Shown in pieces: positions 23,622 through 42,958 of a DNA stretch of 64,000 nucleotides (its first letter is position 1; each line of letters starts with the position of its first letter). Below the pieces are notes generated by a model that was not told the origin of the DNA, ran no database searches, and worked only from the letters and a program-made list of their open reading frames with translations. The translations under genes were made by a program, and so were the position numbers. This DNA comes from Bradyrhizobium sp. CCGUVB1N3 (GTDB taxonomy: Bacteria; Pseudomonadota; Alphaproteobacteria; Rhizobiales; Xanthobacteraceae), in contig NZ_JANADR010000001.1 of NCBI RefSeq assembly GCF_024199925.1, positions 310,001-374,000 of the forward strand. The letters are read 5' to 3'.

Positions 23622-24752
23622 ATGGCTCATCCATTGCAGAAGATCGCAGTCCTTGGCGCCGGGCAGATCGGCGCCGTGATCGCCGGGATGCTGGCGGCGC
23701 ACGGGCACGAAGTTACGTTGGCCGACGCCTCGGAAGCGCAACTCGGCTTGAGCGCAGGACAAACCTTCGCTACCAAGGTCGTGGACGCTGGAGAACTCCA
23801 TGCGGTGCGCGGTTTCCTGAAGGACCAGGATATCGTCGTCAGCGCCTGTCCGTATTTTCTCAATCAGGGTATCGCGCGAGTCGCTGTGGAGACCGGAACG
23901 CACTATTTCGACCTCACGGAGGACGTGGCGACGACGGCCTATATCAAGGAGATCGCGGCGGCTGCCGACGTGATGCTGGCGCCGCAGTGCGGGCTCGCGC
24001 CGGGGTTCATCTGCGTGCTCGGAGCCGACATGGCGGCCCGTTTCGATACGGTGAAGGCCATCAAGATGCGGGTCGGTGCGCTGCCGCTCTACCCCACCAA
24101 TGCCTTGCGTTACAACGTCACCTGGTCCGTCGACGGACTGATCAACGAATACTGCAATCCCTGCGAGATCGTGTTCGACGGCAAGTCGATTTTGGTGCCG
24201 GCGCTCGAGGGCGTCGAGAGCGTGATGATCGACGGCGTCGCCTACGAGGCGTTCAACACCTCGGGCGGGCTTGGCACATTGACGGAGACGCTGGCCGGTA
24301 AGGTCCGCGACATGAGCTACAAGACGCTGCGCTATCCCGGTCATGCCGAGATCATGAAGCTCCTGCTGCAGGGCTTGGGGCTGGCCGACGATCGCGAGAC
24401 CATGCGTCGTATCCTCAACCGCGCCGCGCCGTTCACCCGAAAGGACGTCGTCGTGATCTTCGTGACGGGCATTGGCGAGCGCAACGGGCGCATGGAGGAG
24501 GACAGCATCGTGCTCCGCTACGACGGCAGGCCGGAGCTCGGTGCGATCCAGCTCACCACGGCTGCCGGTTGCGTCGCGATGGTGGAGCTGTTCCTCGCGG
24601 GCAAGCTGCCGGCAAAGGGGTTCGTGCGGCAGGAGGATGCGAGCCTTGCCGATTTCCTCGCGACACGCGAGGGCGGCCGGCTCGCGAGAGAGGCGCGCAG
24701 CTCCGAGACGAACGATTTTGCAGGACGGTTCTCCACCAAGAGAGCCGCTTAG
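23622..24752 (+). CDS. Lysine 6-dehydrogenase / saccharopine-dehydrogenase-family enzyme
   Basis: 376 residues. An N-terminal Rossmann domain (IAVLGAGQIGAVIAGMLA, residues 8-25) and a C-terminal saccharopine-dehydrogenase-like catalytic domain, with CGLAPGFICVLGADMAARFD, VGALPLYPTNALRYNVTWS and GGLGTLTETLAG. Length and motifs fit the L-lysine 6-dehydrogenase group, which oxidatively deaminates lysine to 2-aminoadipate semialdehyde with NAD(P)+. That product is exactly the substrate of the ALDH7 enzyme encoded at 17069-18631. Other carbonyl-forming dehydrogenases of the family cannot be excluded. It lies 12 bases after the ThDP gene and 75 bases before the binding-protein gene. Confidence 0.82.
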   Translation: MAHPLQKIAVLGAGQIGAVIAGMLAAHGHEVTLADASEAQLGLSAGQTFATKVVDAGELHAVRGFLKDQDIVVSACPYFLNQGIARVAVETGTHYFDLTEDVATTAYIKEIAAAADVMLAPQCGLAPGFICVLGADMAARFDTVKAIKMRVGALPLYPTNALRYNVTWSVDGLINEYCNPCEIVFDGKSILVPALEGVESVMIDGVAYEAFNTSGGLGTLTETLAGKVRDMSYKTLRYPGHAEIMKLLLQGLGLADDRETMRRILNRAAPFTRKDVVVIFVTGIGERNGRMEEDSIVLRYDGRPELGAIQLTTAAGCVAMVELFLAGKLPAKGFVRQEDASLADFLATREGGRLAREARSSETNDFAGRFSTKRAA

Positions 24753-24827
24753 GGAGCGCAGAGACCGATAGACCGGTCGCGTCAGAATCAGGGTTTGAGG
24801 AATTCAACTGGAGAGGGGAGGCCTGGT

Positions 24828-25682
24828 ATGGTCAATCGTCGTGAAATCGGATCGCTCGTTGGGCTCGGGGCCGCTGCGGTGGCTATGGCGGCCGGCTCCG
24901 CTGTGTCCCAGGCCGTTGCCCAGACGCAGCCAGCCGAGAGCACGTTTGCTCAAATTCGCAGAACGAAAAGGCTTCGTATCGCCGGAATAGTCGGGACCGA
25001 GCCCTATTATCACAAGGATATCGCCACGGGGCAGTGGTCGGGCTTCTGCGTGAGCATGGCAACCGATCTCGCCAAGGCACTCGAGGCCGAGGTCGAGATC
25101 ATCGAGTCGACCTGGGGCACCTCGGTGCTGGATCTTCAGAGCAACAAGATCGACATCATGTTCGGCCTCAGCCCGACGCCGTCGCGCGCCCTGATCCTCG
25201 AATTCACGCGCCCGATCATGAACAACACCTTCACGATCATCGCCAAGTCCGGTTTCGAACCGAAGACATGGGAAGATCTCAACAAGCCGGAGGTGCGGGT
25301 TGCCGTCGATATCGGCTCCACCCACGATCTCTACGCGCGCCGTACGCTGCCCAAGGCAACGCTGGTCGCATTGAAGACGCCCGATGAGGCCGTGCTGGCG
25401 GTGCAGGCCGGGCGGGCAGATTGCCTGATCCAGGTTGCGATGCTCTCGCTGGTCACGGTCAAGAAGAATGCGAAAGTGGGCAAGGTCATCATCCCGACTC
25501 CGATTGCCGCGCAACCGACCTGCTGCGGCGTACGCGTGGACGTCGATACCCGCTTCCGCACCTATGTCGACAACTGGCTCGAATACAGTCGCTCCCTTGG
25601 CGCGTTGCGGGAGTGGATTCTCACGAGCCTGTCGCTGGTCAATATCCAGGAGCAGGACATTCCTCCCGGGCTCCAATTTTGA
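24828..25682 (+). CDS. Polar amino-acid ABC substrate-binding protein
   Basis: 284 residues from the ATG at 24828, after GGAGAGGGGAGGCC. The N-terminus MVNRREIGSLVGLGAAAV...AVAQ has a Tat-like double-arginine start and a hydrophobic stretch ending AQ. The type-2 binding fold has RIAGIVGTEPYYHKD, GFCVSMATDLAKALEAEVEI, FGLSPTPSRALILEFTRP and VAVDIGSTHD. It binds a polar amino acid in the periplasm for the permease and ATPase at 25848-27335. A strong stem-loop (25687-25721) follows directly, so the binding protein is probably made in excess over the membrane parts. Lysine or another basic or dicarboxylic amino acid is the likely ligand by context. Confidence 0.9.
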   Translation: MVNRREIGSLVGLGAAAVAMAAGSAVSQAVAQTQPAESTFAQIRRTKRLRIAGIVGTEPYYHKDIATGQWSGFCVSMATDLAKALEAEVEIIESTWGTSVLDLQSNKIDIMFGLSPTPSRALILEFTRPIMNNTFTIIAKSGFEPKTWEDLNKPEVRVAVDIGSTHDLYARRTLPKATLVALKTPDEAVLAVQAGRADCLIQVAMLSLVTVKKNAKVGKVIIPTPIAAQPTCCGVRVDVDTRFRTYVDNWLEYSRSLGALREWILTSLSLVNIQEQDIPPGLQF

Positions 25683-25686
25683 TTTC

Positions 25687-25721
25687 AAACTGCCCGCGTC
25701 TTCAGATGACGCGGGCAGTTT
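25687..25721 (+). terminator. Stem-loop between binding-protein and permease genes
   Basis: AAACTGCCCGCGTC (25687-25700) pairs perfectly over 14 bases with GACGCGGGCAGTTT (25708-25721) around a seven-base loop, starting five bases after the stop codon. A short T-containing tail follows. It could be a partial terminator or a 3' mRNA stabiliser that lets the binding-protein transcript outnumber the permease transcript. Confidence 0.75.
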
Positions 25722-25847
25722 CGTCTCAATAGCGTCGTTGAATTTGGGCCAACCAGCGTACGACGAATCAGGGAACATCGGATCGATGCAACATGGGCGA
25801 CATCCTCCGCTGGGCTATTCGCAATCGCTGAGCATGGGATAGCTGTG

Positions 25848-26507
25848 ATGCATTATGACTGGAGTTTCGGTTTCCTTCTGCAATACAGCAAGCTGATCGG
25901 TGTCGGGACCGCCTACACGATCGGCTTTACGATCCTGACCGCGGTGAGCGGATTTGTAATTGGATGCGTGGTCGCAATCGCAAGCCTGTCCAAAATGCGG
26001 TTCGTCTCGACCCCGCTCGTAACGCTGGTCGAGGTGTTTCGCTGTACGCCGGTATTGGTGCAATTGGTGTGGATCTATTACGCGCTTCCAGTGCTCATTG
26101 GCGTAGAACTTTCGCCCGCGGTGGCTGCGTTCATCGCGCTCAGCTTCTACGGTGGCGCCTTCTATTCGGAAATCATTCGTGGCGGCATCGTATCGATCGA
26201 CATGGGGCAATGGGATGCTGGCCGCGCGCTGGGCATGCGTCGCTTCGATCTGATGAAGCGCATCGTCATGCCGCAAGCCCTAAAGCGGATGATTCCTCCG
26301 CTCGTCAACCAAGCGGTGCTGCAACTGAAGAATACTTCGCTGCTCTCGGTCCTGGCGGTCCCGGACCTGCTTTACCAAGGTCAGCTCATCACATCCGCGA
26401 CCTATCGGCCGCTTGAGACCTACACCATGATCGCAGTCATCTACTTCCTCATCTTGTTCCCGATGACGCGCGCTGCGAGCGTGCTCGAAGCGCGGCTGGC
26501 GCGGTGA
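25848..26507 (+). CDS. Polar amino-acid ABC permease (HisM/GlnP type)
   Basis: 219 residues from the ATG at 25848 (a GTG lies one codon earlier). Five hydrophobic segments and the amino-acid transporter permease pattern: TLVEVFRCTPVLVQLVWIYY, FYGGAFYSEIIRGGI, and the coupling loop GRALGMRRFDLMKRIVMPQA near residues 125-145. It is an inner-membrane subunit that probably acts as a homodimer because no second permease gene is present. It lies 165 bases after the binding-protein gene, past a strong stem-loop, and nine bases before the ATPase gene. Confidence 0.92.
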   Translation: MHYDWSFGFLLQYSKLIGVGTAYTIGFTILTAVSGFVIGCVVAIASLSKMRFVSTPLVTLVEVFRCTPVLVQLVWIYYALPVLIGVELSPAVAAFIALSFYGGAFYSEIIRGGIVSIDMGQWDAGRALGMRRFDLMKRIVMPQALKRMIPPLVNQAVLQLKNTSLLSVLAVPDLLYQGQLITSATYRPLETYTMIAVIYFLILFPMTRAASVLEARLAR

Positions 26508-26516
26508 GGCACGGCG

Positions 26517-27335
26517 ATGTCCATCAAAGAGGGAAGCGCTCCCGTGTCTGATGTCCCGATGATCGAGCTGGCTCACGTGAAGAAGGCGTTTGGCCCCGTC
26601 AGCGTCCTGAAGGACATATCGCTGCGGGTGCCCCGCGGCGGTGTCGTCGCGCTGATCGGTCCGAGCGGATCGGGTAAGTCGACGCTGCTGCGGTGCCTCA
26701 ATCTGCTGACCATCCCCGAGAGTGGTTTTATCCGGGTCGGCCAAAGCACCATGGATTTTACCAATGGGCACAAGCTGCCGGCTGACAGGGAGCTCGCGGC
26801 ATTCCGCGCGCGGACCGGCATGGTGTTCCAGAACTTCAACCTGTTTCCGCATATGTCGGCCATCCAGAATGTGATGGAGGGACCCGTCACGGTTCTGAAG
26901 GTCGAGCCGGAGATGGCCCGCGAGACGGCACTTGGGCTCTTGGACAAGGTGGGGTTGAAGGACAAGGCGGAGGTCGCCCCCGACAAGCTGTTCGGCGGCC
27001 AGAAGCAGCGCGTGGCAATCGCGCGTGCTTTGGCGATGAAGCCGCAAGTGATGCTGTTCGACGAGGCGACGTCCGCGCTCGATCCCGAGTTGGTCGGCGA
27101 GGTTCTCGCCGTAGTCCGCCAACTCGCGGCGGAGGGAATGACCATGGTGCTCGTGACTCATGAAATGGCATTTGCGCGCGAGGTCGCGGACACCGTCGTC
27201 TTCATGCGCGATGGCGTCGTCGTGGAAGAGGGGCCCGCTCGGCAGGTGATCGACACGCCGCGTCAGCCCGCAACGCGAACGTTTCTCAGCCACTTCCATA
27301 GCAGTGGCTTGCCGTCAGTTGCCGCGAACGGATGA
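26517..27335 (+). CDS. Polar amino-acid ABC ATPase with altered signature motif
   Basis: 272 residues. Walker A GPSGSGKST near residue 52, Q-loop MVFQNFNLFPHMSA, Walker B VMLFDEATSALDPE and the H-loop VLVTHEM are all normal for the GlnQ/HisP group. The signature motif, normally LSGGQ, reads LFGGQKQRVAIARALA; the serine that contacts ATP gamma-phosphate is replaced by phenylalanine. It energises the permease encoded at 25848-26507, nine bases upstream. The next gene, a DadA-like oxidoreductase, begins 32 bases later and is probably in the same transcript. The substitution is worth testing for reduced activity or a sequence error. Confidence 0.9.
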   Translation: MSIKEGSAPVSDVPMIELAHVKKAFGPVSVLKDISLRVPRGGVVALIGPSGSGKSTLLRCLNLLTIPESGFIRVGQSTMDFTNGHKLPADRELAAFRARTGMVFQNFNLFPHMSAIQNVMEGPVTVLKVEPEMARETALGLLDKVGLKDKAEVAPDKLFGGQKQRVAIARALAMKPQVMLFDEATSALDPELVGEVLAVVRQLAAEGMTMVLVTHEMAFAREVADTVVFMRDGVVVEEGPARQVIDTPRQPATRTFLSHFHSSGLPSVAANG

Positions 27336-27367
27336 TTGCCTGACGAGCTGCGGCCGGGTCGAGGGGA

Positions 27368-28645
27368 ATGAATCAAGACAGGACAGCACTCCGCATCGCC
27401 GTGATCGGTGCCGGCATCGTCGGCGCTGCGACCGCATGGGAGCTCATCAAGGACGGCCACGAGGTCACGCTGATCGAGCCGGGCGAGCCGGGCGGACGCC
27501 AGTCGGCAAGCTATGGCAACGGCTCGTGGATCAGCCCGGCTTCGATCATCCCCATGTCGATGCCCGGCCTGTGGCGCAAGGTGCCGGCCTATCTCTTCGA
27601 CCCGAACGGACCGCTCGTGCTGCGCTGGACGGCACTGCCCGTGTTGGTGCCCTGGCTGCTGCGATTTCTTGCCGCCGGATGGACGGTTGCGAAGGTCGAG
27701 CGGACCGCGCGCGCGCTCGCATCGATCCTGCGCGACGGTCCCGCGCGCCACGCCGCGCTCGCGAAGGAAATCGGCAAGCCGGATTGCATACGCCGGACCG
27801 GTCTGCTCTATGCCTACCCCGATCGCAAGGCGTTCGAGGATGAATCGCTCGCGTGGCGGCTTCGTAAGGACAACGGGCTGCGATGGGTCGAGCTGGATGC
27901 CGGCGAGTTGCGTCGTGGCGAACCCGATCTGAGTTCCGACTATCAGTTTGGTGCATTCGTTCCCGAAGGCGCCCACTGTATCGATCCCGGCGCCTATGTA
28001 TCTGACATCGTCGATGCCGCGCGGGTGCGGGGCGCCGTCATTGTCAAGGCGAACGCAACCGGCTTTGTCATGGCCGGCGACCGTCTTGCAGCTGTCGTCA
28101 CAGATCATGGCCGCGTCGAGTGTGATCGGGCCGTGATCTGCGCCGGCATCTGGTCAAAGGTTCTTGCCGAGGCCGCAGGCAATCGCGTGCCGCTGGCGAG
28201 CGAGCGCGGCTATCACGGCGTGATTGCATCGCCCGCGGCCGGCCCGAGGCTTCCGATCATGCCGAGCGATGGACGGATGGCGAACACGCCGACCCCAGCC
28301 GGCCTGCGGCTTTCGGGACAAGTCGAACTCGCGCAAGTCGAGGCCGAGCCGGACTGGGCGCGCGTCGAAATTCTCGTCGGTCACGCTTTGCGGACCTATC
28401 CCGGTCTCGGATCACGTGCGGAGCTGACGATCGATCGCTGGATGGGGCATCGGCCATCGACGCCGGACGGCCGTCCCGTCATCGGCAAAGCATCGGCGTC
28501 GGAAGACATCTTCCACGCCTTCGGACACGGACACATCGGCCTGGCGTCAGGCCCGATTACGGGCCGGATCGTCGCCGATCTCATTGTCGGCAGGGATGCC
28601 GGCATCGATCTCGCACCGTTTTCCGCGACACGTTTTCACAACTGA
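27368..28645 (+). CDS. DadA-like FAD-dependent D-amino acid dehydrogenase/oxidase
   Basis: 425 residues. N-terminal FAD Rossmann motif IAVIGAGIVGAATAWELIKD with LIEPGEPGGRQSASYGN, the DadA-type GG-x-x-SxxN loop. A C-terminal FAD contact block GHRPSTPDGRPVIG and AFGHGHIGLASGP is characteristic of DadA and related DAO-family enzymes. It oxidises a D-amino acid (or a secondary amine) to the 2-oxo acid, passing electrons to a quinone or O2. It follows the amino-acid ABC transporter by 32 bases and precedes a racemase-like gene by 13 bases, which suggests use of a D-amino acid or an amino acid needing epimerisation. The substrate is unknown. Confidence 0.9.
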   Translation: MNQDRTALRIAVIGAGIVGAATAWELIKDGHEVTLIEPGEPGGRQSASYGNGSWISPASIIPMSMPGLWRKVPAYLFDPNGPLVLRWTALPVLVPWLLRFLAAGWTVAKVERTARALASILRDGPARHAALAKEIGKPDCIRRTGLLYAYPDRKAFEDESLAWRLRKDNGLRWVELDAGELRRGEPDLSSDYQFGAFVPEGAHCIDPGAYVSDIVDAARVRGAVIVKANATGFVMAGDRLAAVVTDHGRVECDRAVICAGIWSKVLAEAAGNRVPLASERGYHGVIASPAAGPRLPIMPSDGRMANTPTPAGLRLSGQVELAQVEAEPDWARVEILVGHALRTYPGLGSRAELTIDRWMGHRPSTPDGRPVIGKASASEDIFHAFGHGHIGLASGPITGRIVADLIVGRDAGIDLAPFSATRFHN

Positions 28646-28658
28646 CCTGGAGACCACA

Positions 28659-29387
28659 ATGAAGCTGCGAGGCGGCTGCACGAACTACGGAGAGACGATC
28701 GGAGTCCTGATGCTGGACACGAGGTTTCCGCGCCCACGTGGCGACATCGGGAATGCGCTGTCCTACGACTTTCCCTTACGCTACAAGATCGTGCGCGGGG
28801 CCCATGCGACCAAGATCATGGGCGACCATCCCGACTCGAGCCTTCTCGAGCCGTTCGTGGTGGCGGCCCGGGAATTGGAAGCCGAGGGTGTCAAGGCGAT
28901 CACGACGAGCTGCGGGTTCCTGGCCCCGTTCCAGAAGCAGCTCGCCGCGGCGGTGAATGTTCCGGTCTTCACCTCCAGCCTGATCCAGGCGCCGCTGATC
29001 CATGCGATGCTGCCGCCGGGCAAGATTATCGGCGTCTTTACCGAGCGCGGACATCACATGAATGACGACCATTTCCGCGGTGTTGGCTGGTCGGCGAATG
29101 ACATCCCCGTCCAGATCCAGGGCATGAAGCCTGATGCGCAGTTTCCGGCGACCTATATTGTTGGCCGGGAGGAGCTGGACACCGATGTGCTGCGAGCCGA
29201 GATGATCGAAATGACCGAAGCCTTCATGGCCTCCTGCAAGAACCCGGGTGCCATCCTCTTCGAATGTACCAACATGTGCCCGTTCTCGAAAGACGTCGCG
29301 GAAGTGTCGGGACTCCCTGTCTTTGATATCAACACGATGATCAACTTCTTCTATCGCGCGGCCAATCCGGTCCCGTTTCTGAGATAA
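28659..29387 (+). CDS. Asp/Glu-racemase-family protein with both cysteines
   Basis: 242 residues from the ATG at 28659, with GGAG seven bases before. Asp/Glu racemase superfamily: GVLMLDTRFPRPRGDIGN at the start, first catalytic cysteine in ITTSCGFLAPFQ near residue 87, second in LFECTNMCPFS near 207. Unlike the 1647-2429 protein, both cysteine positions are retained, so racemisation or epimerisation is possible. It ends the operon that starts at 21828. Together with the DadA-like enzyme it would let the cell channel either enantiomer of an amino acid into oxidation. It may alternatively belong to the aspartate-racemase-like hydantoin group. Confidence 0.82.
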   Translation: MKLRGGCTNYGETIGVLMLDTRFPRPRGDIGNALSYDFPLRYKIVRGAHATKIMGDHPDSSLLEPFVVAARELEAEGVKAITTSCGFLAPFQKQLAAAVNVPVFTSSLIQAPLIHAMLPPGKIIGVFTERGHHMNDDHFRGVGWSANDIPVQIQGMKPDAQFPATYIVGREELDTDVLRAEMIEMTEAFMASCKNPGAILFECTNMCPFSKDVAEVSGLPVFDINTMINFFYRAANPVPFLR

Positions 29388-29538: not shown

Positions 29539-30579
29539 TCAACTGCTCTGCCGATGGAGCAGGGTGAAACGCGTATCGATGACGGCCTGTTCCGGCTCGC
29601 CGTCTGGGTGCGAGATCCTTGCGATGATCAGCCGCGCGGCTTCCTTCCCGATCAGGTCGCCAGGCGGGCGGATGGTTGTCAACGACGGATTGGAGGCCGC
29701 GCTGAAGCTCAAGTCGCCGAAGCCCACCACGGACAGGCGCTCGGGGATTGCAATGCCGAGGCGCTGGCACTCGAAGATCACGCCGAGGGCGATATGGTCG
29801 TTGGAGCAGGCAATCCCGTTCACGTTCGGAAAGCGATGAAGGGCCTCGCCGAGCAGCATGGCGCCGACCTCGGCGCTCGACGGCGCAGGATGCTGGATGA
29901 TCTCCGCAGTGACGTCCGGCACGTTCCGCGCCGTCTCGACGAAGCCCTGGGCGCGCCGTGCAGCGCGACGATCCTCGTGCAGGCGGGCGCCAAGAAACAG
30001 CAATCGCTTGCGTCCTCGCTGAACGAGATGCGACGCGGCGGCGTGACCGACCTGGTCGTGGTGAAAGCCGACCGCCATGTCCATAGTCTGGGAACCGAGC
30101 TCCCAGATTTCGACAACCGGCACGTTGCTTTCACGCAACAGCCTGCGTGTCGCAGCGCTGTGGGAGAGGCCGGTCAGAACGATAGCGGCGGGGGCCCAGG
30201 ACAGTGCCGTGCGCACCAGACTTTCCTCGTCGTGCTCTTTGTACTCGGTGTGGCCGAGCATCACCTGCAGTCGCTGCTTGCCGAGTTCTTCCTGCATGGC
30301 CGCGACGGTCTCGGCAAAGAAAGCATTGCGGACGGATGGCACAATGATGCTCACGACGCGCGATGAGGCCGCAGCCAGGCCGCCGGCCATCAGGTTCGGC
30401 ACGTAGTCGAGCGCTTCGATGGCGCGTGCGATCGAGTCGCTCGCCGCCGCTGAAACCGCATCGGGCTTCCTGAAATAGAGGGACACCGTGGACGGCGAGA
30501 GCTCGGCGCGCGCCGCCACATCCATGATCGTGACCCGTTGCATCTTGCGCCGGGTGCGTGTGGGCTTTGGTGCCGCCAT
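29539..30579 (-). CDS. LacI-family transcriptional regulator of the sulfosugar cluster
   Basis: 346 residues. The LacI helix-turn-helix lies at residues 16-40 (VTIMDVAARAELSPSTVSLY), with the hinge helix in PNLMAGGLAAASS. The periplasmic-binding-like effector domain runs from residue 70 to the end, with VSIIVPSVRNAFFAETV and SNDHIALGVIFECQRLGI. The R-x-x-Q segment typical of sugar binders is present in modified form. It diverges from the sugar ABC operon. Two matching operator-like sites at 30597-30612 and 30762-30777 lie next to each start, so it probably represses both itself and the transporter-glycosidase operon until a sugar, perhaps sulfoquinovose, binds. Confidence 0.9.
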   Translation of the reverse strand: MAAPKPTRTRRKMQRVTIMDVAARAELSPSTVSLYFRKPDAVSAAASDSIARAIEALDYVPNLMAGGLAAASSRVVSIIVPSVRNAFFAETVAAMQEELGKQRLQVMLGHTEYKEHDEESLVRTALSWAPAAIVLTGLSHSAATRRLLRESNVPVVEIWELGSQTMDMAVGFHHDQVGHAAASHLVQRGRKRLLFLGARLHEDRRAARRAQGFVETARNVPDVTAEIIQHPAPSSAEVGAMLLGEALHRFPNVNGIACSNDHIALGVIFECQRLGIAIPERLSVVGFGDLSFSAASNPSLTTIRPPGDLIGKEAARLIIARISHPDGEPEQAVIDTRFTLLHRQSS

Positions 30580-30596
30580 TCCCTTGGTGGTCCAAA

Positions 30597-30612
30597 ATAA
30601 TAGCGCTGCAAT
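30597..30612. promoter_or_regulatory. Candidate LacI operator, regulator-proximal
   Basis: ATAATAGCGCTGCAAT, centred on the AGCGCT palindrome with a central CG as in LacI-family operators. It lies 17 bases upstream of the lacI start and matches, in opposite orientation, the site at 30762-30777 (12 or more of 16 positions). Confidence 0.55.
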
Positions 30613-30761
30613 CTAGCCGAGGTTCTGTCCGCAATACAATCGCATTCTTCTTGTCAGAAAAATATGATATGATGATCAAATAGATACGCGAAGATCCCAT
30701 CTCCTGGCCCGCCGGATCGAGTTGGAGCCGGCGGACGTTTTCTTGGCCTTTGATTTCAGAA

Positions 30762-30777
30762 ATCGTAGCGCTATTGT
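30762..30777. promoter_or_regulatory. Candidate LacI operator, transporter-proximal
   Basis: ATCGTAGCGCTATTGT; its reverse complement ACAATAGCGCTACGAT shares AATAGCGCT and further bases with the site at 30597-30612. It lies 53 bases before the ABC ATPase start, a good place to block its promoter. The 149-base gap between the sites would allow looping. Confidence 0.55.
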
Positions 30778-30830
30778 CGGCTGCAGCGGCTTCACCGGCC
30801 GTAGGGATGCGGGACGGGAGAACAGGCCTC

Positions 30831-31904
30831 ATGGCTTCGGTCAGCCTGCGCAAGCTTGAGAAGAGCTATGGCGCGTTTCGCGTCGTCAAGGCCATCGACC
30901 TCGAGATCATCGACGGCGAGTTCGTGGTGCTGGTTGGTCCGTCGGGCTGCGGCAAATCGACGACGCTGCGCATGATCGCCGGACTCGAAAGGATCAGCAG
31001 CGGTGAGATCCGGATCGGCGATCGTATCGTCAACGATCTGCCGCCGCGCGAGCGCGACATTGCCATGGTTTTCCAGGACTACGCGCTCTACCCGCACAAG
31101 ACGGTACGCGAGAACATGGGGTTCAGCCTGAAGGTGCGGGGCGCGAGCGCGGCGGAAGTGGACGCAAAGATCAGGGTCGCGGCGGAGATGCTTGGCATCA
31201 CCCATCTTCTCGACCGGCGGCCGGGACAGCTCTCCGGTGGACAGCGCCAGCGGGTTGCGATGGGCCGGGCCATCGTTCGGCGGCCGCAGGTGTTCCTGTT
31301 CGATGAGCCGTTATCCAATCTCGACGCGAAGCTGCGCGGTCAGGTGCGCACGGAAATCAAGAAGCTACACCAGACAATAGGGACCACCATCGTCTATGTG
31401 ACCCACGATCAGGTCGAGGCGATGACGTTGGCCGATCGCATTGTCATTCTTCGCGGCGGCGACATCGAGCAGATCGGAACGCCCGATGACGTCTACAACA
31501 ATCCGGCGAGTGTGTTCGTCGGCGGCTTCGTCGGCTCTCCGTCGATGAACTTCGCCAAGGCCAGGGTTGCCCATGGCTGTCTCGATTTCGCCGACGGCAA
31601 TCGTCTGCCGCTTACGGCTTTGACCGGCACCGGGATCTCGGCGGCTGATGGGCGCGATTTTATCGTCGGCATCAGGCCCGAGCATTTCACATCCGGGACG
31701 TCCGATGTCGGCCTGAATTGCGAGGTTCAGGTCGTCGAGCCGCTCGGCTCCGATACGCTGGTGCATTTTTCGGTGGGCGGCGCGACATTGACCGCGCGGC
31801 TGCCGCCCGAGTTGCGCCCGCAAACCGGCGAAACGTTCAAGCTGGGCCTCGACCCTGCGAAGATTCATCTGTTTGATGCGGAGACGGAGCGTGCCTTGCA
31901 GTGA
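30831..31904 (+). CDS. Sugar ABC transporter ATPase (UgpC/MsmK type)
   Basis: 357 residues from the ATG at 30831 (GGGAG and AGG upstream); the upstream extension is not conserved. Walker A GPSGCGKST, Q-loop MVFQDYALYPHKTV, signature LSGGQRQRVAMGRA, Walker B VFLFDEPLSNLDAKLR and H-loop VTHDQVEAM are all intact. The C-terminal regulatory OB-fold (residues 240-357) contains VGIRPEHF, typical of MalK/UgpC proteins. It energises the importer formed with the two permeases at 33322-35120. First gene of the operon under the LacI operators. By context it corresponds to the SmoE role in Agrobacterium-type sulfoquinovosyl glycerol import. Confidence 0.92.
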   Translation: MASVSLRKLEKSYGAFRVVKAIDLEIIDGEFVVLVGPSGCGKSTTLRMIAGLERISSGEIRIGDRIVNDLPPRERDIAMVFQDYALYPHKTVRENMGFSLKVRGASAAEVDAKIRVAAEMLGITHLLDRRPGQLSGGQRQRVAMGRAIVRRPQVFLFDEPLSNLDAKLRGQVRTEIKKLHQTIGTTIVYVTHDQVEAMTLADRIVILRGGDIEQIGTPDDVYNNPASVFVGGFVGSPSMNFAKARVAHGCLDFADGNRLPLTALTGTGISAADGRDFIVGIRPEHFTSGTSDVGLNCEVQVVEPLGSDTLVHFSVGGATLTARLPPELRPQTGETFKLGLDPAKIHLFDAETERALQ

Positions 31905-33224
<1,320 letters not shown>

Positions 33225-33321
33225 GGCACGTTCCGGCGACGAGTGGGTGTGTTTCTGTCCGCATCCCGCTCGTGGTCGCGAATTCCTGCGGTCGCCTTGT
33301 GCGCAATCCGGATCGGACTTA

Positions 33322-34269
33322 ATGACGATGACATTCACGTTCAAGAACGCTGCCGGTCGCGTGGGTGCGCGACGTGCGAGGCTGTCGCGCTGGTTTGATC
33401 CGGACGAAACGACGCTCGCCGTGCTGCTCTTGGCACCCGCCGCGATCCTGCTCAGTGTGATGATCGTCTATCCGGTGGGCCGGCTCATCTACACGAGTTT
33501 TCTCGACCTGTCGCTGACGTCGGGCCTGCCGGCGCGATTCGCCGGGTTCGCGAACTTTCAGCAGATGCTGGAAGATCCGGTCTTTTGGCAGGCGACCTGG
33601 AACACGATCCTGATCACGCTCATCACCGTGCCCGGCGCGCTGATCGTCGGGCTCGGGCTTGCGCTGCTCGCCAATCTGCCGTTCCAGATGCGATGGCCGG
33701 TGAGGCTCTCGCTCCTGATTCCGTGGGCGCTGCCGCTCGCGTTCACGGGCCTGATCTTTGCCTAGTTCTTCCATTCGGAATACGGCGTCGTCAACGACGT
33801 GCTCAATCGGGTCGGCCTGCCGGGCGTGATCTGGTTCAATTCGCCGCGTCTCGCGTTCGCCGCGATCTGCCTCGCCATCATCTGGAAGGCCTCGTCCTTC
33901 ATGGCGATGATCATTCTCGCCGGATTGCAGACTATTCCGCGTTCGCTTTACGAGGCCGCGGACGTCGACGGGGCAGGGCGCGTGCGGCAGTTCTTCGAGA
34001 TCACGCTGCCGCTGCTGAAGCCCACGATCGTGGTCGCGCTGATCTTCCGCACCATTACCGCGCTGCAGACCTTCGATATTCCCTACATGATGACGGGCGG
34101 CGGGCCGGGCACCGCAACTGCGACGTTGGCTATGTACATCCATCAGAACACTGTGTCGTTCCTCGACCTTGGCTATGGATCCGCGCTTGCGGTGATGATG
34201 TTCGGCCTTTCGATGTGCGTCACGGCGCTTTACCTGCGCGTGATCCGCGGCAATGGGCCCGCATCATGA
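33322..34269 (+). pseudogene. Sugar ABC permease (MalF/UgpA type) interrupted by an in-frame amber codon
   Basis: The frame from the ATG at 33322 reads as a complete 315-codon MalF-type permease except for TAG at 33763-33765 (codon 148). Translation is normal on both sides: ...LPLAFTGLIFA, stop, [17 protein letters not shown].... Related permeases have tryptophan at this point (FAWFFHSEYG), so one TGG-to-TAG change explains it. The EAA coupling motif ([20 protein letters not shown]) and later helices lie after the stop. The 3' end overlaps the next permease by ATGA. Either the importer is broken, the stop is suppressed, or the base is wrong. An ATG or GTG restart after the stop would lack the first helices. 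Confidence 0.85.
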
Positions 34270-35120
34270 GCACGGCTGTCTTCTCCGCTCTCGGCTCGGC
34301 CTTGTCCGGCAAACCGTTGCGGGCCATTGCCGCGCTCATTCTCGTCGTGAACGGCCTGTTCCCGGCGCTGTGGATTCTGCTGACCTCGTTCAAGCCTGAG
34401 GCGGAGCTTACGCTGAAGCCGATCACCTGGCTGCCGCAAGCGGCGACGCTGCGGAATTACATCCAGGCGTTCTCCGATCAACCTCTACTCACGTTCCTAT
34501 TCAACAGCTTCATGGTTGCGCTGTTGTCGACCGTACTGACGCTGCTTGTTTCCGTCCTCGCGGCCTATGCCTTGGCACGGCTGAATCTGAGATTTCGCGG
34601 CCTCATCATGTCGCTGATCATCGCGGTCTCGACCTTCCCACTGGTCACGCTCCTGGTGCCGCTGTTCGAGACCATGCGCGCGCTCGATCTGCTCAACACC
34701 TGGACAGCGCTGATCCTGCCTTACACGGTGCTGAGCCTGCCGGTATGCACGTTGGTGCTGACGTCGTTCTTCGAAGGCATTCCGCGCGATCTGGAGAATG
34801 CCGCCATGATCGACGGCTGCACGCGCTTTGGCGCGTTGTTCAAAGTGGTGGTGCCGCTGTCTGCGCCCGGCGTATTTACCGCGGGAATCCTCGCCTTCGT
34901 CAATTCATGGGACGAGTTTTTGCTCGCGCTCTCGTTCAATTCCAATCCAGCACTGCGCACGCTGCCGGTCGGAATCCAGCTTTATCAGGGCGAGTTTGCC
35001 TTCCCCTGGCCGGTGATCTCGGCCGCGCTCGTCGTCGGCATCGTACCGGTGGCGATCCTGATCGTGATCTTCCAGGAGCGTGTGGTCTCGGGGCTGACGG
35101 CGGGCGGCCTCAAGGGATGA
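34266..35120 (+). CDS. Sugar ABC permease (MalG/UgpE type)
   Basis: 284 residues; the start ATG overlaps the previous permease stop (ATGA). Six hydrophobic segments, with the MalG-type [33 protein letters not shown] and the EAA-like loop [20 protein letters not shown] near residues 178-198. C-terminal [16 protein letters not shown] is a standard ending for this subunit. It pairs with the MalF-type permease encoded upstream, which is interrupted, so the transporter as sequenced would have one intact and one truncated membrane subunit. Confidence 0.92.
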
Positions 35121-35132
35121 GGAGCCAAGACC

Positions 35133-35285
35133 GTGCCGGCTATAGCTATAGATCGCGGCGGCACGACGGCTACAGCGGGGTGTGCCGATGACGAGTTGGT
35201 CCAGTATCCATTGAGCGGTGATTTGCTTGTGATGCGGGTCGATGTCCCGGGTCTCGGGAAATCGCTCTTCAATCGTTTCGTCTAA
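35133..35285 (+). CDS. 50-residue ORF resembling a ROK-kinase N-terminus (possible gene remnant)
   Basis: A GTG at 35133 follows GAGGAGCCAAGACC, a strong ribosome site, 12 bases after the permease stop. The frame runs 50 codons to TAA at 35283-35285. The beginning, VPAIAIDRGGTTATAGCADD, resembles the phosphate-1 motif (D-x-G-G-T-K/T) that opens ROK-type sugar kinases. Nothing after about residue 22 (MRVDVPGLGKSLFNRFV) matches such a kinase well. It may be the start of a deleted kinase gene, or an unrelated small protein. It is in the operon orientation between the permease and SDR genes, 25 bases before the latter. Confidence 0.4.
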   Translation: MPAIAIDRGGTTATAGCADDELVQYPLSGDLLVMRVDVPGLGKSLFNRFV

Positions 35286-35310
35286 GCAGAAACATTACGA
35301 GGTTCATGAG

Positions 35311-36066
35311 ATGACGACCTACGACAGCGTTCGCTACGCCTCCCTTGCGGGTCGCAATGTGCTGATCAGCGGTGGCGCCTCCGGCATTGGCGCCGAGATG
35401 GTGAAGGCTTTCGCATCGCAAGGATCGGCCGTATCGTTCATCGACATCGCTGAGCAAGCAGGCGCTGCGACCGCGGCCTCAACGGGGGCGGAATTCATCG
35501 CTTGCGACGTCACGGACATTGCTGCACTCCGTGTGGCGATTGCGCGCGTGGAAGAAAAGCGTGGTCCCCTTGCGGTGCTGGTCAACAACGCGGCCCGCGA
35601 CGATCGCCATGCCATGGCCGATGTCGAGCCCGAGGCCTGGCGGCGCACGTTGTCGCTCAACCTTGACCATCAGTTCTTTGCAACCCAGGCGGTGAGCAAG
35701 CGGATGGCCGAGGCCGGCGGGGGAGCGATCATCATGCTCGGCTCGGTTTCATGGATGCGCGGAATCCCGGGGATGGTCGGCTATACCGCGGCGAAAGCTG
35801 CGATCAACGGCATGACCAAGACGCTTGCCCGCGAGTTCGGTCCGGCCGGAATTCGCGTCAATTGCATTGTGCCCGGTGCGATCGTGACCGAGCGCCAGCT
35901 GCGGCTCTGGACGACGCCCGAGGTCAATCAGCGGTTCATCGATAGCCAGGCGCTCAAATTCCGGCTCGATGCCACGCACGTGGCGCGCCTGGCGTTGTTT
36001 CTCGGCTCGGACGAAAGCTCCGGCTGCACCGGCGCGAACTTCGTGGTCGATGCCGGCCTCACATGA
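35311..36066 (+). CDS. Short-chain dehydrogenase, candidate sulfoquinovose/sugar dehydrogenase
   Basis: 251 residues from the ATG at 35311, after ACGAGG. Classical SDR: NAD(P) loop VLISGGASGIGAEM, ACDVTD, VLVNNAARDDRH, catalytic Ser in MLGSVSW, Tyr and Lys in YTAAKAAINGM, and NCIVPGAIVT. The arrangement with an acidic residue after the second beta strand (FIDIAE) favours NAD+. It overlaps the sulfoquinovosidase gene by ATGA, implying coupled synthesis. In the sulfo-Entner-Doudoroff pathway an SDR oxidises sulfoquinovose to its lactone, and that is the likeliest role here. A general aldose dehydrogenase is the alternative. Confidence 0.85.
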   Translation: MTTYDSVRYASLAGRNVLISGGASGIGAEMVKAFASQGSAVSFIDIAEQAGAATAASTGAEFIACDVTDIAALRVAIARVEEKRGPLAVLVNNAARDDRHAMADVEPEAWRRTLSLNLDHQFFATQAVSKRMAEAGGGAIIMLGSVSWMRGIPGMVGYTAAKAAINGMTKTLAREFGPAGIRVNCIVPGAIVTERQLRLWTTPEVNQRFIDSQALKFRLDATHVARLALFLGSDESSGCTGANFVVDAGLT

Positions 36067-38075
36067 TCACCGAAAGAATGGACATGAAACTCGAGACCAC
36101 ACCGGCCGGCTTCACGCTCTCGCTCAATGGCCGGCCGATCCTCAATCACAGCGTGACGAGCCCGTGCGTCTTCGTCGGGCGAGGCGACGACCGCATCGAG
36201 ATGCATCGCGGCCGCTTCGAGATCGAGGACCGCCTGGTCGAGCGCTGTCCGCTCGCGCATGCCGAGATCGATGGCGAGCGCATCACGCTTGCGGCCGGGA
36301 AGGGGCAGGCGCCGCGGCTCATCATCACGCTCAAGGGAGATGCGATGGTGCTGCAAGCAGCCGATCCATCGGTGAACCGGTTCTGGATCCGCATTGCGGC
36401 CGATCCGGATGAGCACGTCTGGGGCTGTGGCGAACAGTTTTCCTATTTCGATCTGCGCGGCCGTCGTTTTCCGCTGTGGACGTCCGAGCCGGGCGTCGGG
36501 CGTGACAAGAGCACTGAAATCACGTTCAAGGCGGACGTCACCGACAAGGCGGGCGGCGATTATTACCACACCTACTATCCGCAGCCGACCTATGTCTCCT
36601 CGGCACATTATGCGCTGCATGTCGCGACGTCAGCCTTCAGCGTGTTCGATTTTCGCGACGGCTCGTTTCACGAGATCGAGGTCTGGGCTGTTCCGGAGCG
36701 CATCGAACTGTTCGCTGCGCCGTCGTTCGTCGCGTTGGTCGAGATCCTGTCCGACCGCTTCGGGCGCCAGGCGCCGTTGCCCGAGTGGGTCTATGACGGC
36801 GCGATTATTGGATTGAAGGATGGGGCGAATTCGTTCGAGCGCCTCGACAAGATGCGCGAAGCGGGCGTCAAGGTCTCCGGTCTCTGGTGCGAGGACTGGG
36901 TGGGCATCCGGCCGACCACCTTCGGCGCGCGGCTATTCTGGAACTGGCAGGCGAACGAAACGCGCTATCCGGGCCTGCGCCAGCGCATCGCCGAATTGAA
37001 CAGCGACGGCATTCGCTTTCTCGGCTATGTGAACCCGTATCTCTGCGACGACGGGTCCTTGTTCAAAGAAGCCGAGGCCGCGGACTATTTCGTCAAGGAT
37101 GGCGCCGGCCGAACCGCCCTGATCGATTTCGGCGAATTTCACTGCGGCATTGTCGATTTTAGCAATCCAGACGCCGCGGGATGGTTCTCCGAAGAGATCG
37201 TCGGCGCGAGGATGCTCGATTACGGCCTGTCTGGCTGGATGGCCGATTTTGGCGAGTACCTGCCGACCGACGTGCGTCTCGCCAACGGCGTCGATGCGAA
37301 GCTCATGCACAATCAGTGGCCGACGCTGTGGGCAGAGGTGAACTCAAAGGCGGTGGCGAGCCGAGGCAAGACCGGCGAAGCGCTGTTTTTCATGCGCGCC
37401 GGCTTCACGGGCGCGCAGAGATATTGCCCTTTGCTCTGGGCCGGCGACCAATCGGTCGACTTCTCGCGTCATGACGGGCTAGTCACCGTGATTTGCGCCG
37501 CCTTGTCGTCCGGCCTGCTCGGCAATGCGTATCATCATTCCGATATCGGCGGTTACACGAGCCTGTTCGGCAATGTCCGCACGCCCGAGCTTCTCATGCG
37601 CTGGGCGGAGATGGCGGCATTCACGCCGGTCATGCGCAGCCACGAGGGCAACCGGCCGCGCGACAACGTTCAGCTCGACGGCGATCCCGTAGTGCTGTCG
37701 CACTTTGCCAGGATGACCGCGATCTACGTTTATCTCGCACCCTATCTCAGGACATTGGCGCAAGAAGCGGCGCGCCGCGGCCTTCCAGTGCAGCGCCCGT
37801 TGTTCTTGCACCACGAAGCCGATGGGCGAACCTACAGTATTCAGGATAGCTATCTGTATGGTCCCGATGTGCTGGTTGCACCCATCTGGCAGGCATCTCA
37901 AACCGAGCGGACGCTGTATCTGCCAACCGGAACCAATTGGAGTCACGTCTGGACTGGCCAGTCGTTCGCTGGGGGCGAAGAAATCACGGTCGGTGCTCCG
38001 CTGGGGCAGCCTGCGGTCTTTTACAGGGCGGATTCCCCGTTTGCGTCGCTATTCGTTGCTCTTCGGGACGTGTAG
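36063..38075 (+). CDS. GH31 sulfoquinovosidase (YihQ/SmoI type)
   Basis: 670 residues; the start ATG overlaps the SDR stop. GH31 alpha-glycosidase very close in pattern to YihQ. The catalytic nucleophile is Asp395 in GWMADFGEYLPTD and the acid is Asp462 in LLWAGDQSVDFS; their spacing equals that of E. coli YihQ (Asp405/Asp472). The sulfonate-recognition residues are Lys252 (IIGLKDG), Glu277 (LWCEDWVG), Arg290 and Trp293 (FGARLFWNW), and Tyr498 (SDIGGYT). This is the KERWY set described for the Agrobacterium enzyme, where E. coli has QQRWY. It releases sulfoquinovose from sulfoquinovosyl glycerol, the sulfolipid head group. No signal peptide, so it is cytoplasmic. Last gene of the operon; a convergent ABC gene follows. 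Confidence 0.9.
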   Translation: MITERMDMKLETTPAGFTLSLNGRPILNHSVTSPCVFVGRGDDRIEMHRGRFEIEDRLVERCPLAHAEIDGERITLAAGKGQAPRLIITLKGDAMVLQAADPSVNRFWIRIAADPDEHVWGCGEQFSYFDLRGRRFPLWTSEPGVGRDKSTEITFKADVTDKAGGDYYHTYYPQPTYVSSAHYALHVATSAFSVFDFRDGSFHEIEVWAVPERIELFAAPSFVALVEILSDRFGRQAPLPEWVYDGAIIGLKDGANSFERLDKMREAGVKVSGLWCEDWVGIRPTTFGARLFWNWQANETRYPGLRQRIAELNSDGIRFLGYVNPYLCDDGSLFKEAEAADYFVKDGAGRTALIDFGEFHCGIVDFSNPDAAGWFSEEIVGARMLDYGLSGWMADFGEYLPTDVRLANGVDAKLMHNQWPTLWAEVNSKAVASRGKTGEALFFMRAGFTGAQRYCPLLWAGDQSVDFSRHDGLVTVICAALSSGLLGNAYHHSDIGGYTSLFGNVRTPELLMRWAEMAAFTPVMRSHEGNRPRDNVQLDGDPVVLSHFARMTAIYVYLAPYLRTLAQEAARRGLPVQRPLFLHHEADGRTYSIQDSYLYGPDVLVAPIWQASQTERTLYLPTGTNWSHVWTGQSFAGGEEITVGAPLGQPAVFYRADSPFASLFVALRDV

Positions 38076-41889: not shown

Positions 41890-42002
41890 GGCTTTGGGCC
41901 TCCCCGCGGCATGACGTCGGACGCGGCGTTTCCGAAAGACGCGATGCGGGTGCTGGCCGGTGCGGTGCCGCCGAACTGTACCTCGATGACGTGCCGGTTC
42001 AT
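41886..42002 (-). CDS. 38-residue ORF coupled between nucleoside hydrolase and permease genes
   Basis: ATG at 42002 overlaps the nucleoside hydrolase stop (ATGA), and its TGA at 41886-41888 overlaps the GTG start of the DppB-type permease. It exactly fills the gap with no spare bases. The product begins MNRHVIEVQFGGTAP and ends PRGGPKP; no membrane segment, cysteine pair or known motif is visible. The double overlap argues for translation, either as a real small protein or as a bridge that carries ribosomes across the gap. It could also be what remains of a longer gene. I do not recognise it. Confidence 0.5.
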   Translation of the reverse strand: MNRHVIEVQFGGTAPASTRIASFGNAASDVMPRGGPKP

Positions 42003-42958
42003 GCCCGCTCCCGGTCGGCGTAGCGGGACAACCGATCGAGCAGCAGAGCTATGACGCCGTCGGCATCGACCTTCGTCACAATGTCGGCATTCGGTTCGAG
42101 CCCGCTCTTGCCGTACCAATCGGCGACTGTCTGCCCCATGCAGAGCTCGCTCTCGTGCTCGACGAAGATGCGGGCACGCTGCGTCTCGAACAGATGCGGC
42201 GCCAGCAGATAGGCGATGACGAGGGGGTCGTGCAGGGGCCCGCCCCGTGAGCCGTAGCGGCGGACGTCGTTGCGGTCCCAGAAAGCCATCAGCTCGGTCA
42301 AGGCCTCGGAAATCCGGCCGCTGACGCTCGCGAACTGCGCCACATGCTCCGGCTTGAGAATAACCTGATGCGTCGCGTCGAGCGGCAGCGCAACGATCGG
42401 AATCTCACTCGAGAAGACGATATGCGCGGCGTGCGGATCGGCCAGGACGTTGAATTCCGCCGTCATCGTGCGATTGCCGGGCTCACGATAGGCGCCGCCC
42501 ATCATCACGATCCGCTCGACCCCCTCCGCGATCTGCGGCTTCATGCGAAGCGCGACGGCAAGGTTCGTCATCGGCCCGAGGCAGCAGATCGTGACCCGCT
42601 CGTTCCGCTCTGCGGCCCTGGACAGAGTCGCGACCAGGAACTCGACCGCTGACAAGGGCTCGGCGGTCTTCACGGGGTCCGACAGGCTGGTGTTTCCCAA
42701 CCCACTTTTGCCGTGGAACTGGCCGTGGATCGGCTCACGAAGGATCGGTCTGAAGCACCCTGCAAAGACAGGAATATCAGCCCGCCTCCCGAGTTCGCAG
42801 ACCTGGAGCGTGTTCCGCACCGTCCGCGCGAGTGGCTGGTTGCCGCAGACCGGCGTGATGCCGAGGATGTCGAGCTCCGGCGATACGAAAGCCGTCAACA
42901 GCGCGATCGTGTCATCGATCCCCGGGTCACAATCGACGACAATCGGAATGGTTTTCAT
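41999..42958 (-). CDS. Nucleoside hydrolase (IunH/RihA type)
   Basis: 319 residues. Inosine-uridine-preferring nucleoside hydrolase family: the calcium-binding N-terminus IVVDCDPGIDDTIALL, with Asp9, Asp11, Asp15 and Asp16, is complete. Other family segments follow: NTSLSDP, VTICCLGPMTNLAVALRMKP, IVMMGGAYREPGN and TAEFNVLADPHAA, with the late Asp in HDPLV. It cleaves the N-glycosidic bond of ribonucleosides to base and ribose. It sits between the binding-protein and permease genes of a peptide-type ABC transporter, 91 bases after the former. The transporter may therefore import nucleosides, or the operon may handle a nucleoside-peptide type compound. No signal peptide, so cytoplasmic. Confidence 0.92.
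   Translation of the reverse strand: MKTIPIVVDCDPGIDDTIALLTAFVSPELDILGITPVCGNQPLARTVRNTLQVCELGRRADIPVFAGCFRPILREPIHGQFHGKSGLGNTSLSDPVKTAEPLSAVEFLVATLSRAAERNERVTICCLGPMTNLAVALRMKPQIAEGVERIVMMGGAYREPGNRTMTAEFNVLADPHAAHIVFSSEIPIVALPLDATHQVILKPEHVAQFASVSGRISEALTELMAFWDRNDVRRYGSRGGPLHDPLVIAYLLAPHLFETQRARIFVEHESELCMGQTVADWYGKSGLEPNADIVTKVDADGVIALLLDRLSRYADRERA

Follow-up and report, generated by a model that had tools for sequence, protein, structure and literature searches.

The cluster at 29539..38075 of the window, the 64,000-nucleotide stretch of Bradyrhizobium sp. CCGUVB1N3 DNA analysed here, encodes a LacI regulator, an ABC sugar importer, an SDR and a GH31 enzyme, and with a probability of about 0.8 it is what remains of a rhizobial sulfo-Entner-Doudoroff (sulfo-ED) operon after deletion of its core, not a newly built pathway. 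This reading is drawn from sequence comparison. A fossil of the sulfogluconolactonase gene lies in the gap before the SDR gene, which argues for an eroded operon over a pathway newly assembled and, together with the graded loss of the SDR, points to erosion of a complete sulfo-ED operon. Sulfoquinovose (SQ) is a plant sulfosugar and a very large pool of organic sulfur, and the genus Bradyrhizobium is common in soils.

Organization of the cluster

The ATPase, substrate-binding protein, two permease, SDR and GH31 genes all run in the same direction, and the LacI gene diverges from them.

29539..30579, minus strand: LacI-family regulator, divergent from the operon, with LacI HTH and sugar-binding domains
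30598..30611, no strand: probable operator 1, window sequence TAATAGCGCTGCAA
30763..30776, no strand: probable operator 2, window sequence TCGTAGCGCTATTG, ahead of the ATPase gene
30831..31904, plus strand: ABC importer ATPase (UgpC type), 78% identical to the sulfo-ED ATPase of L085
31980..33224, plus strand: SmoF-like substrate-binding protein
33322..34269, plus strand: importer permease 1, with a TAG stop in its frame; beyond the stop the same frame reads on, highly conserved
33763-33765, plus strand: the in-frame TAG in permease 1
34266..35120, plus strand: importer permease 2, 85% identical to sulfo-ED permease 2 of L085
35163..35285, plus strand: fossil of the sulfogluconolactonase C-terminus, ending at a stop codon
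35311..36066, plus strand: SDR, probable sulfoquinovose 1-dehydrogenase, contact residues kept
36063..38075, plus strand: GH31 sulfoquinovosidase (predicted), with KERWY and both catalytic Asp

The proteins are 72-85% identical to those of the sulfo-ED operon of Rhizobium sp. WSM4643 (L085). The closest solved structures are SmoF for the binding protein, a sulfoquinovose dehydrogenase for the SDR and GH31 sulfoquinovosidases for the GH31 protein, and these matches bear out the first-pass annotation's description of a sulfoquinovosidase-centred uptake cluster. The set compared below comprises 12 Bradyrhizobium genomes with this GH31, the window genome included; Bradyrhizobium is monophyletic in both the transporter tree and the GH31 tree, which are given without support values. 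When the window flanks were compared with those of L004-L008, no shared gene above 50% identity was found beyond the LacI-to-GH31 block except one generic ABC ATPase common to the window and L005, and on these window comparisons the idea of conserved partner genes was rejected.

The sulfoquinovosidase and the SDR

The GH31 protein matches 5ohy and 5ohs, which we take to be the Agrobacterium enzyme, over its whole length at 1119 and 1117 bits; the top six chains all reach about 760 bits or above, and the next GH31 only 142. Read from 36063, it carries K252, E277, R290, W293, Y498, D395 and D462, all seven at the positions that the first-pass annotation had named; KERWY or QQRWY with two catalytic Asp is presumably the sulfonate-recognition and catalytic set of GH31 sulfoquinovosidases. 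By these features the protein is a predicted sulfoquinovosidase. The motif proved useless as a discriminator within the group, as the full set occurs in 95 of the 95 GH31 entries above 45% identity, three of which repeat another entry (L001 repeats the window, L091 repeats L005 and L092 repeats L006). The window genome also holds a second GH31 relative, at 8906742-8908457, which was considered as a possible second sulfoquinovosidase; it has a signal-like N-terminus and Gln in place of the sulfonate-binding Arg.

The best solved match of the SDR is 9gwu, titled sulfoquinovose 1-dehydrogenase, at 293 bits (next, 232). When the PpSQDH residues were mapped onto it by motif spacing, D45, D99, R101, S147, R152, Y160, K164 and Q198 were found to be kept, including the tetrad residues S147, Y160 and K164 and all four SQ-contacting residues tested (D99, R101, R152 and Q198), while R154 is replaced by Ile. 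The roles of these residues, such as the water-mediated contact of R154, are taken from PMC12133307. The SDR is thus a probable sulfoquinovose 1-dehydrogenase, and the earlier proposal that it acts on free sulfoquinovose gains support at that strength.

Importer and regulation

The ATPase scores 496 bits on the UgpC subfamily model (cut-off 432), and the binding protein matches SmoF (7nbz) at 674 bits, the next solved structure reaching 221. In all 12 Bradyrhizobium binding proteins, every one of them intact, SmoF His13 is replaced by Gly and Asn41 by Ala or Thr, changes by which the imported ligand could have shifted; the Gly is found in Burkholderia and Pandoraea sulfo-ED loci too. The importer is intact in 9 of the 12 clusters and damaged in three: the window, where permease 1 is interrupted; G009, from which the ATPase gene is missing; and G120, which alone has a frame break early in permease 2. 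The permease 1 TAG, which had escaped the first-pass annotation, is carried by the window copy alone among 43 hits (several partial) and the 12 clusters. It could be a sequencing error; if genuine, it probably halts import in the window strain.

The LacI protein, intact in 12 of 12 clusters, is 80% identical to that of the L085 operon, and the operators are common to the reduced Bradyrhizobium clusters and full sulfo-ED operons. Operator 1 is the exact palindrome TAATAGCGCTATTA in nine of the 12 Bradyrhizobium clusters and in one of the seven sulfo-ED loci looked at (L085); L011 differs from it by one mismatch, and its right half is weakened in the window and L004. Operator 2 reads TCG(T/C)AGCGCTA in all 11 Bradyrhizobium loci and all six sulfo-ED loci of an alignment that left out G009 and L041, in both of which a palindrome scan shows no second site of this kind.

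Probable erosion of a sulfo-ED operon

The rhizobial sulfo-ED operon of L085, Ensifer adhaerens (L084) and Shinella HZN7 (L086) shares with the window its LacI gene, operators, importer, SDR, GH31 and their order; the window order is that of this operon minus the dehydratase, aldolase and lactonase inside it and the TauE and SLA dehydrogenase genes after GH31. PMC10599462 places the same operon in R. leguminosarum SRDI565 as well.

Of the missing core, the operon retains only the C-terminus of the sulfogluconolactonase, with no complete gene. This fossil, also overlooked by the first-pass annotation, aligns over 37 residues to positions 255-291 of the L085 lactonase with a score of 84, a value reached by none of 300 dinucleotide shuffles (maximum 47); the best of 40 lactonases scores 109 (L032). 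L004 keeps the same stretch (score 51, best 82; 0/300 shuffles, maximum 46), along with a dehydratase match scoring 50 that one of 300 shuffles reached. A single shared core deletion would be the parsimonious account, which is not proof with a fossil of 37 residues kept in only 2 of the 12 clusters. Remnants of TauE or SLA dehydrogenase behind GH31 were rejected, none being found in the six flanks tested, and no SLA dehydrogenase or sulfite/sulfonate exporter is present in the 12 Bradyrhizobium cluster regions.

Loss of the SDR came later, in sister lineages, and in steps. The SDR is intact in four clusters (window, L004 of B. cajani, L005 and G043), carries an internal deletion in G120, is reduced in G009 to its first 15 residues, in frame into GH31, and is absent from L006, L007 (B. 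zhengyangense), L008, G057, G059 and G131.

Other systems resemble the window in part. The Agrobacterium smo (sulfo-SMO) cluster (L024), whose Smo gene names we assigned by eye, uses the same importer and sulfoquinovosidase families; however, its regulator is of the GntR type, and the window has no SmoA, SmoB or SmoC nearby, nor its genome a SmoC ortholog. Aurantimonas and Jiella (L046, L047 and L059), which have a true split sulfo-ED, likewise show an SDR-GH31 pair without adjoining dehydratase and aldolase, but a KDSG aldolase (67-70%) lies on another contig in 3/3 of these genomes, and the window genome has no ortholog of it. The partial sulfo-ED cluster of Elstera (PMC13372026; L040) pairs GH31 with an incomplete sulfo-ED set; in L040 the core has dehydratase and aldolase and misses only the lactonase, whereas the window misses all three core genes.

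Search for the missing steps

The absence of monooxygenase genes, dehydratase, lactonase and aldolase that had been noted earlier is real in the cluster region, where nothing above 45% identity to SmoA or SmoB was found in any of the 12 Bradyrhizobium genomes. The genome search that the first-pass annotation had called for, covering KDSG aldolase and SmoC and here extended to SquD and YihS, returned no ortholog in 12/12 genomes: (i) the best KDSG aldolase hits are 30-32% identical, none exceeding 34% over most of the length, whereas the two positive control genomes give 96% and 79%; (ii) the best SmoC/SquD hits are 30-37% (controls 52% and 75%); and (iii) the YihS sulfoquinovose isomerase gives only partial matches of 21-25%, in a search that included no positive control genome. 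A pathway relocated within the window genome was therefore rejected, KDSG aldolase, SmoC, SquD and YihS all lacking an ortholog. A full sulfo-ED operon in other members of the genus was rejected too: aldolase matches at E <= 1e-60 (44-51% identity) occur in 7 of 265 genomes of the genus, and these are not the nine GH31-bearing ones, three of the seven (G172, G234 and G242) lying outside the GH31 screen.

The dehydratase query found in the window genome only an L-arabinonate dehydratase-type protein and weaker paralogs. This IlvD/Edd protein (G000:C1:6546812-6548542) shares 60% identity with sulfogluconate dehydratase, and the L-arabinonate dehydratase model gives it 1097 bits, above the cut-off of 882; relatives of 60-61% occur in 9/9 Bradyrhizobium genomes searched, with the operon copy absent.

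Fate of sulfoquinovose

We propose that a sulfoquinovose compound would cause LacI to release the promoter, that the SmoF-like importer would take in sulfoquinovosyl glycerol, and that GH31 would cleave it to sulfoquinovose and glycerol. In SDR-bearing strains, sulfoquinovose and NAD+ would then yield sulfogluconolactone, a point after which the searches turned up no dedicated enzyme; from there the carbon may pass to housekeeping sugar-acid enzymes, take another route or reach a dead end. Most likely, then, the Bradyrhizobium cluster is a reduced module for uptake and hydrolysis that hands its product to housekeeping enzymes, to some other route or to none.

Plain decay, in which the operon is disused in the window strain and perhaps in the genus and its remaining genes are being lost, is a tentative reading that we hold below even odds. 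The core genes are gone, operator 1 is weakened, the permease 1 stop is unique to the window and the G120 SDR is cut; the damage to three of 12 importers raises the odds of decay and lowers those of an undescribed route. However, all 12 genomes have undamaged genes for LacI, the binding protein and GH31, and all window frames except permease 1 are open. Mean dN/dS is 0.066-0.126 across all seven cluster genes (0.114 for GH31), with window pairs inside the spread of the others. What is left of the operon is under purifying selection by this pairwise measure, which averages over history and is blind to very recent loss of function.

A working split sulfo-ED pathway is somewhat unlikely. Here the sulfogluconolactone made by the SDR would open unaided or by another lactonase, and the remaining steps would fall to the L-arabinonate dehydratase of housekeeping metabolism and to a class II aldolase of generic type, making the lost genes redundant. 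The dehydratase relatives described above, SDR paralogs of 46-52% in 9/9 genomes searched and purifying selection on the SDR wherever it is kept are consistent with this, but the aldolase hits are distant, eight of the 12 genomes have no SDR or only a cut one, and the cluster has neither SLA dehydrogenase nor sulfite exporter, nor, in the six flanks tested, a downstream relic of them. Of the split or shortened pathway suggested in the first-pass annotation, the coherent split finds no support in the aldolase hits, the fossil and the SDR loss; a shortened housekeeping route is possible, if unproven.

It is doubtful that hydrolysis is kept for scavenging, whether of glycerol or of sulfur through an SsuD-type monooxygenase, with sulfoquinovose or sulfogluconate otherwise a by-product for other bacteria. 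Glycerol kinase and glycerol-3-phosphate dehydrogenase genes adjoin GH31 in the Microvirga ossetica and Burkholderia multivorans clusters, and SsuD-type proteins (36-37% to SquD) occur in nine of 12 Bradyrhizobium genomes, that of the window in what by eye is an apparent ssu-like operon. Yet in G009, G057 and L007 the relatives of SquD reach only 30%, the window flanks hold no conserved partner gene, and no sulfoquinovose exporter was seen in Bradyrhizobium flanks that are annotated in part.

Quite improbable is an undescribed sulfoquinovose route that allowed the loss first of the sulfo-ED core and afterwards of the SQ dehydrogenase, a reading under which sulfoquinovosidase (12/12) and importer (9/12) would be retained under strong selection because the sugar is consumed despite the missing sulfo-ED, sulfo-SMO and sulfo-EMP pathways.

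Implications

Surveys that call SQ degraders by a complete gene cluster would overlook these Bradyrhizobium strains, and surveys that call them by sulfoquinovosidase would overcount them. The clusters form an erosion series, with the lactonase as a fossil, the SDR cut, reduced to a stub or gone, and some importers damaged, which suggests that a sulfoglycolytic operon decays first in its core, then in the dehydrogenase and parts of the importer, and lastly in the sulfoquinovosidase, binding protein and regulator. What uptake and hydrolysis are worth alone thereby becomes a directly testable question in Bradyrhizobium.

Composition of the cluster

In Bradyrhizobium sp. CCGUVB1N3 (genome of 10.44 Mb in three contigs), a putative sulfoquinovose (SQ) uptake cluster is arranged as follows:

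29539-30579, minus strand: LacI regulator, first gene of the cluster
to 38075, plus strand: ATPase, binding protein, permease 1, permease 2, short-chain dehydrogenase (SDR) and GH31, in that order

Homology makes it near certain that these parts include a sulfoquinovosidase, a SmoF-like binding protein and an SQ dehydrogenase. The top solved relatives of the GH31 protein are chains 5ohy (1119 bits) and 5ohs (1117 bits), which we take to be the Agrobacterium sulfoquinovosidase; those of the binding protein and the SDR are SmoF 7nbz (674 bits; runner-up 221) and sulfoquinovose 1-dehydrogenase 9gwu (293 bits; runner-up 232). Among named genomes, the closest GH31 proteins, 80-82% identical to the window copy, occur in five of Bradyrhizobium. 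All seven residues that the first-pass annotation had assigned to substrate recognition and catalysis (Lys252, Glu277, Arg290, Trp293, Tyr498, Asp395 and Asp462) were found in place. The same seven are present in all 95 GH31 entries with more than 45% identity, of which three are duplicates, and therefore back family membership without discriminating inside the family. For the SDR, the account of PpSQDH gives D99, R101, R152 and Q198 as direct SQ contacts and R154 as water-mediated (PMC12133307). The window SDR keeps the equivalents of the four direct contacts and the catalytic residues checked, while the R154 equivalent is Ile, and in places Asn, Met or Val at other loci.

Elsewhere in the genome, a second sulfoquinovosidase-like GH31 protein (37%; locus L002, G000:C1:8906742-8908457) has a signal-like N-terminus and reads Gln-Gln-Gln-Trp-Tyr at the recognition positions. 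Further features, within the window itself, are:

11535-14954: 1139-residue reading frame, resembling by eye a fusion between a molybdopterin oxidoreductase and a flavin and 2Fe-2S reductase module
23622-29387: amino-acid cluster with a saccharopine-dehydrogenase-like protein, a family 3 solute-binding protein with ABC importer, a DAO-family FAD-dependent oxidoreductase and a weak Asp/Glu racemase match
41999-42958: inosine-uridine nucleoside hydrolase, adjoining a minus-strand peptide-type ABC importer (by eye)

Probable origin from a sulfo-ED operon

In Ensifer, Rhizobium and Shinella, the complete sulfo-ED operon has the gene order LacI / ATPase, binding protein, permease 1, permease 2, dehydratase, aldolase, lactonase, SDR, GH31, TauE, sulfolactaldehyde (SLA) dehydrogenase. 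The window has the same order but is without the dehydratase, aldolase, lactonase, TauE and SLA dehydrogenase, which bears out the local absence of the first three reported by the first-pass annotation. The 190 bp between permease 2 and SDR, scored against 300 dinucleotide shuffles, hold a remnant of the missing core:

35163-35273: lactonase C-terminus relic, 37 aligned residues, with a stop at 35283-35285

Its score of 84 against the lactonase of Rhizobium sp. WSM4643 was reached by 0 of 300 shuffles (shuffle maximum 47), and the best of 40 lactonases gave 109; scores for six other proteins tried on this gap were matched by 11 to 237 of the 300. The same relic is held by B. cajani (score 51, best 82, 0/300 shuffles), whose gap also scores 50 with the dehydratase, a value that one shuffle in 300 attains. 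The relics of the two strains begin at one and the same position of the lactonase (residue 254-255), which fits a single shared deletion. The remaining 10 Bradyrhizobium clusters contain no recognisable lactonase relic. Descent of the cluster from an eroded sulfo-ED operon is thus well supported. The nearest published parallel found is Elstera, for which an incomplete sulfo-ED cluster without lactonase is described (PMC13372026). The open PMC literature searched, a collection that mostly leaves out subscription journals, yielded no description of Bradyrhizobium using SQ.

Probable erosion across Bradyrhizobium

Of 147 genomes sampled from the genus, nine contain GH31 at E <= 1e-150; with B. 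cajani (L004), B. zhengyangense (L007) and L008 these make 12 distinct genomes, since loci L005 and L006 duplicate G007 and G122. All 12 have intact genes for LacI, the binding protein and GH31, and the importer is complete in nine. The damaged importers are those of G009, which has no ATPase gene, of G120, where the permease 2 frame is broken near its start, and of the window:

33763-33765: in-frame TAG in permease 1

Among 43 hits (several partial), only the window copy has this TAG; if it is not an assembly error, the importer is inactive in this strain. Four of the 12 genomes have an intact SDR (window, L004, L005 and G043); the gene has an internal deletion in G120 and is missing altogether from L006, L007, L008, G057, G059 and G131. 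G009 retains only the first 15 residues of the SDR, in frame with GH31, so that this GH31 (locus L167; frame of 686 aa) may have a small SDR-derived N-terminal extension. In the binding protein, SmoF His13 and Asn41, presumably near the SmoF sulfonate site, are replaced in 12/12 genomes by Gly and by Ala or Thr, respectively; Burkholderia and Pandoraea sulfo-ED loci also have Gly at the His13 position.

Fate of the sugar

A genome search for KDSG aldolase and SmoC homologues, proposed in the first-pass annotation, returned low-identity relatives only. Best aldolase matches were 30-32% in 12/12 genomes, with none above 34% across most of the length, against 96% and 79% for controls in two pathway-bearing genomes; three truly split genomes (Aurantimonas, Jiella), in contrast, have a 67-70% KDSG aldolase on other contigs. 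Seven of 265 Bradyrhizobium genomes contain 44-51% aldolase relatives, none of the seven being among the nine known GH31 bearers. SmoC/SquD matches peaked at 30-37% in all 12 (controls 52% and 75%), and YihS, run without a positive control, gave partial 21-25% matches in all 12.

In the Aurantimonas and Jiella loci (L046, L047, L059), SDR-GH31 adjoin a different ABC importer and more large reading frames, with KDSG aldolase on another contig; L047 is without lactonase, whose place seems occupied by an aldose-epimerase-like gene (by eye). In Rhizobium WSM4643, a SquD-like LLM monooxygenase (L085:905-1963; 75% to sphingomonad proteins beside GH31) adjoins the complete sulfo-ED operon, so this strain may own two SQ routes.

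Scavenging by the remaining module is a possible explanation of what persists. Its decay is another, whose odds the damage to 3/12 importers raised from three in ten to just over one in three. Housekeeping enzymes could possibly complete a sulfo-ED route; a search with the dehydratase hit a protein of 60-61% in 9/9 genomes, and the one from the window genome scores above the cut-off of the NCBI L-arabinonate dehydratase model. Consumption of SQ through unfamiliar enzymes is a less likely alternative, having dropped with the same importer damage from one in five to about one in six.

Regulation and selection

Two AGCGCT-centred palindromes lie in the LacI-ATPase gap, and LacI would bind both. 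Site 1 is exactly TAATAGCGCTATTA in 9/12 Bradyrhizobium and in the Rhizobium WSM4643 operon (one of seven sulfo-ED loci inspected), and is weakened in the window and B. cajani. Site 2, TCG(T/C)AGCGCTA, is present in 11/11 Bradyrhizobium and 6/6 sulfo-ED loci aligned; in G009 and L041, outside this alignment, a palindrome scan revealed no second site. The old control circuit thus seems to have been retained.

Nucleotide identity between the window and B. cajani is 87-96% from LacI into the first part of permease 2, at ~34.6 kb, and 69-84% thereafter, dS climbing along the operon from about 0.2 to 0.7-1.2, and G120 has a 91-92% identity patch within GH31 (37030-37630). This mosaic points to recombination within the operon. 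Beyond LacI..GH31, the window flanks have no match above 50% to L004-L008 among the matches listed, save one generic ABC ATPase.

Mean pairwise dN/dS was 0.102 for LacI, 0.106 for the ATPase (11 genomes), 0.112 for the binding protein, 0.126 and 0.066 for permeases 1 and 2, 0.104 for the SDR (4 genomes) and 0.114 for GH31. Bradyrhizobium form one clade in both the transporter tree (35 loci) and the GH31 tree, read without support values, which suggests that the core deletion is shared by the clade. If so, the selection measured by these ratios acted after the core was lost.
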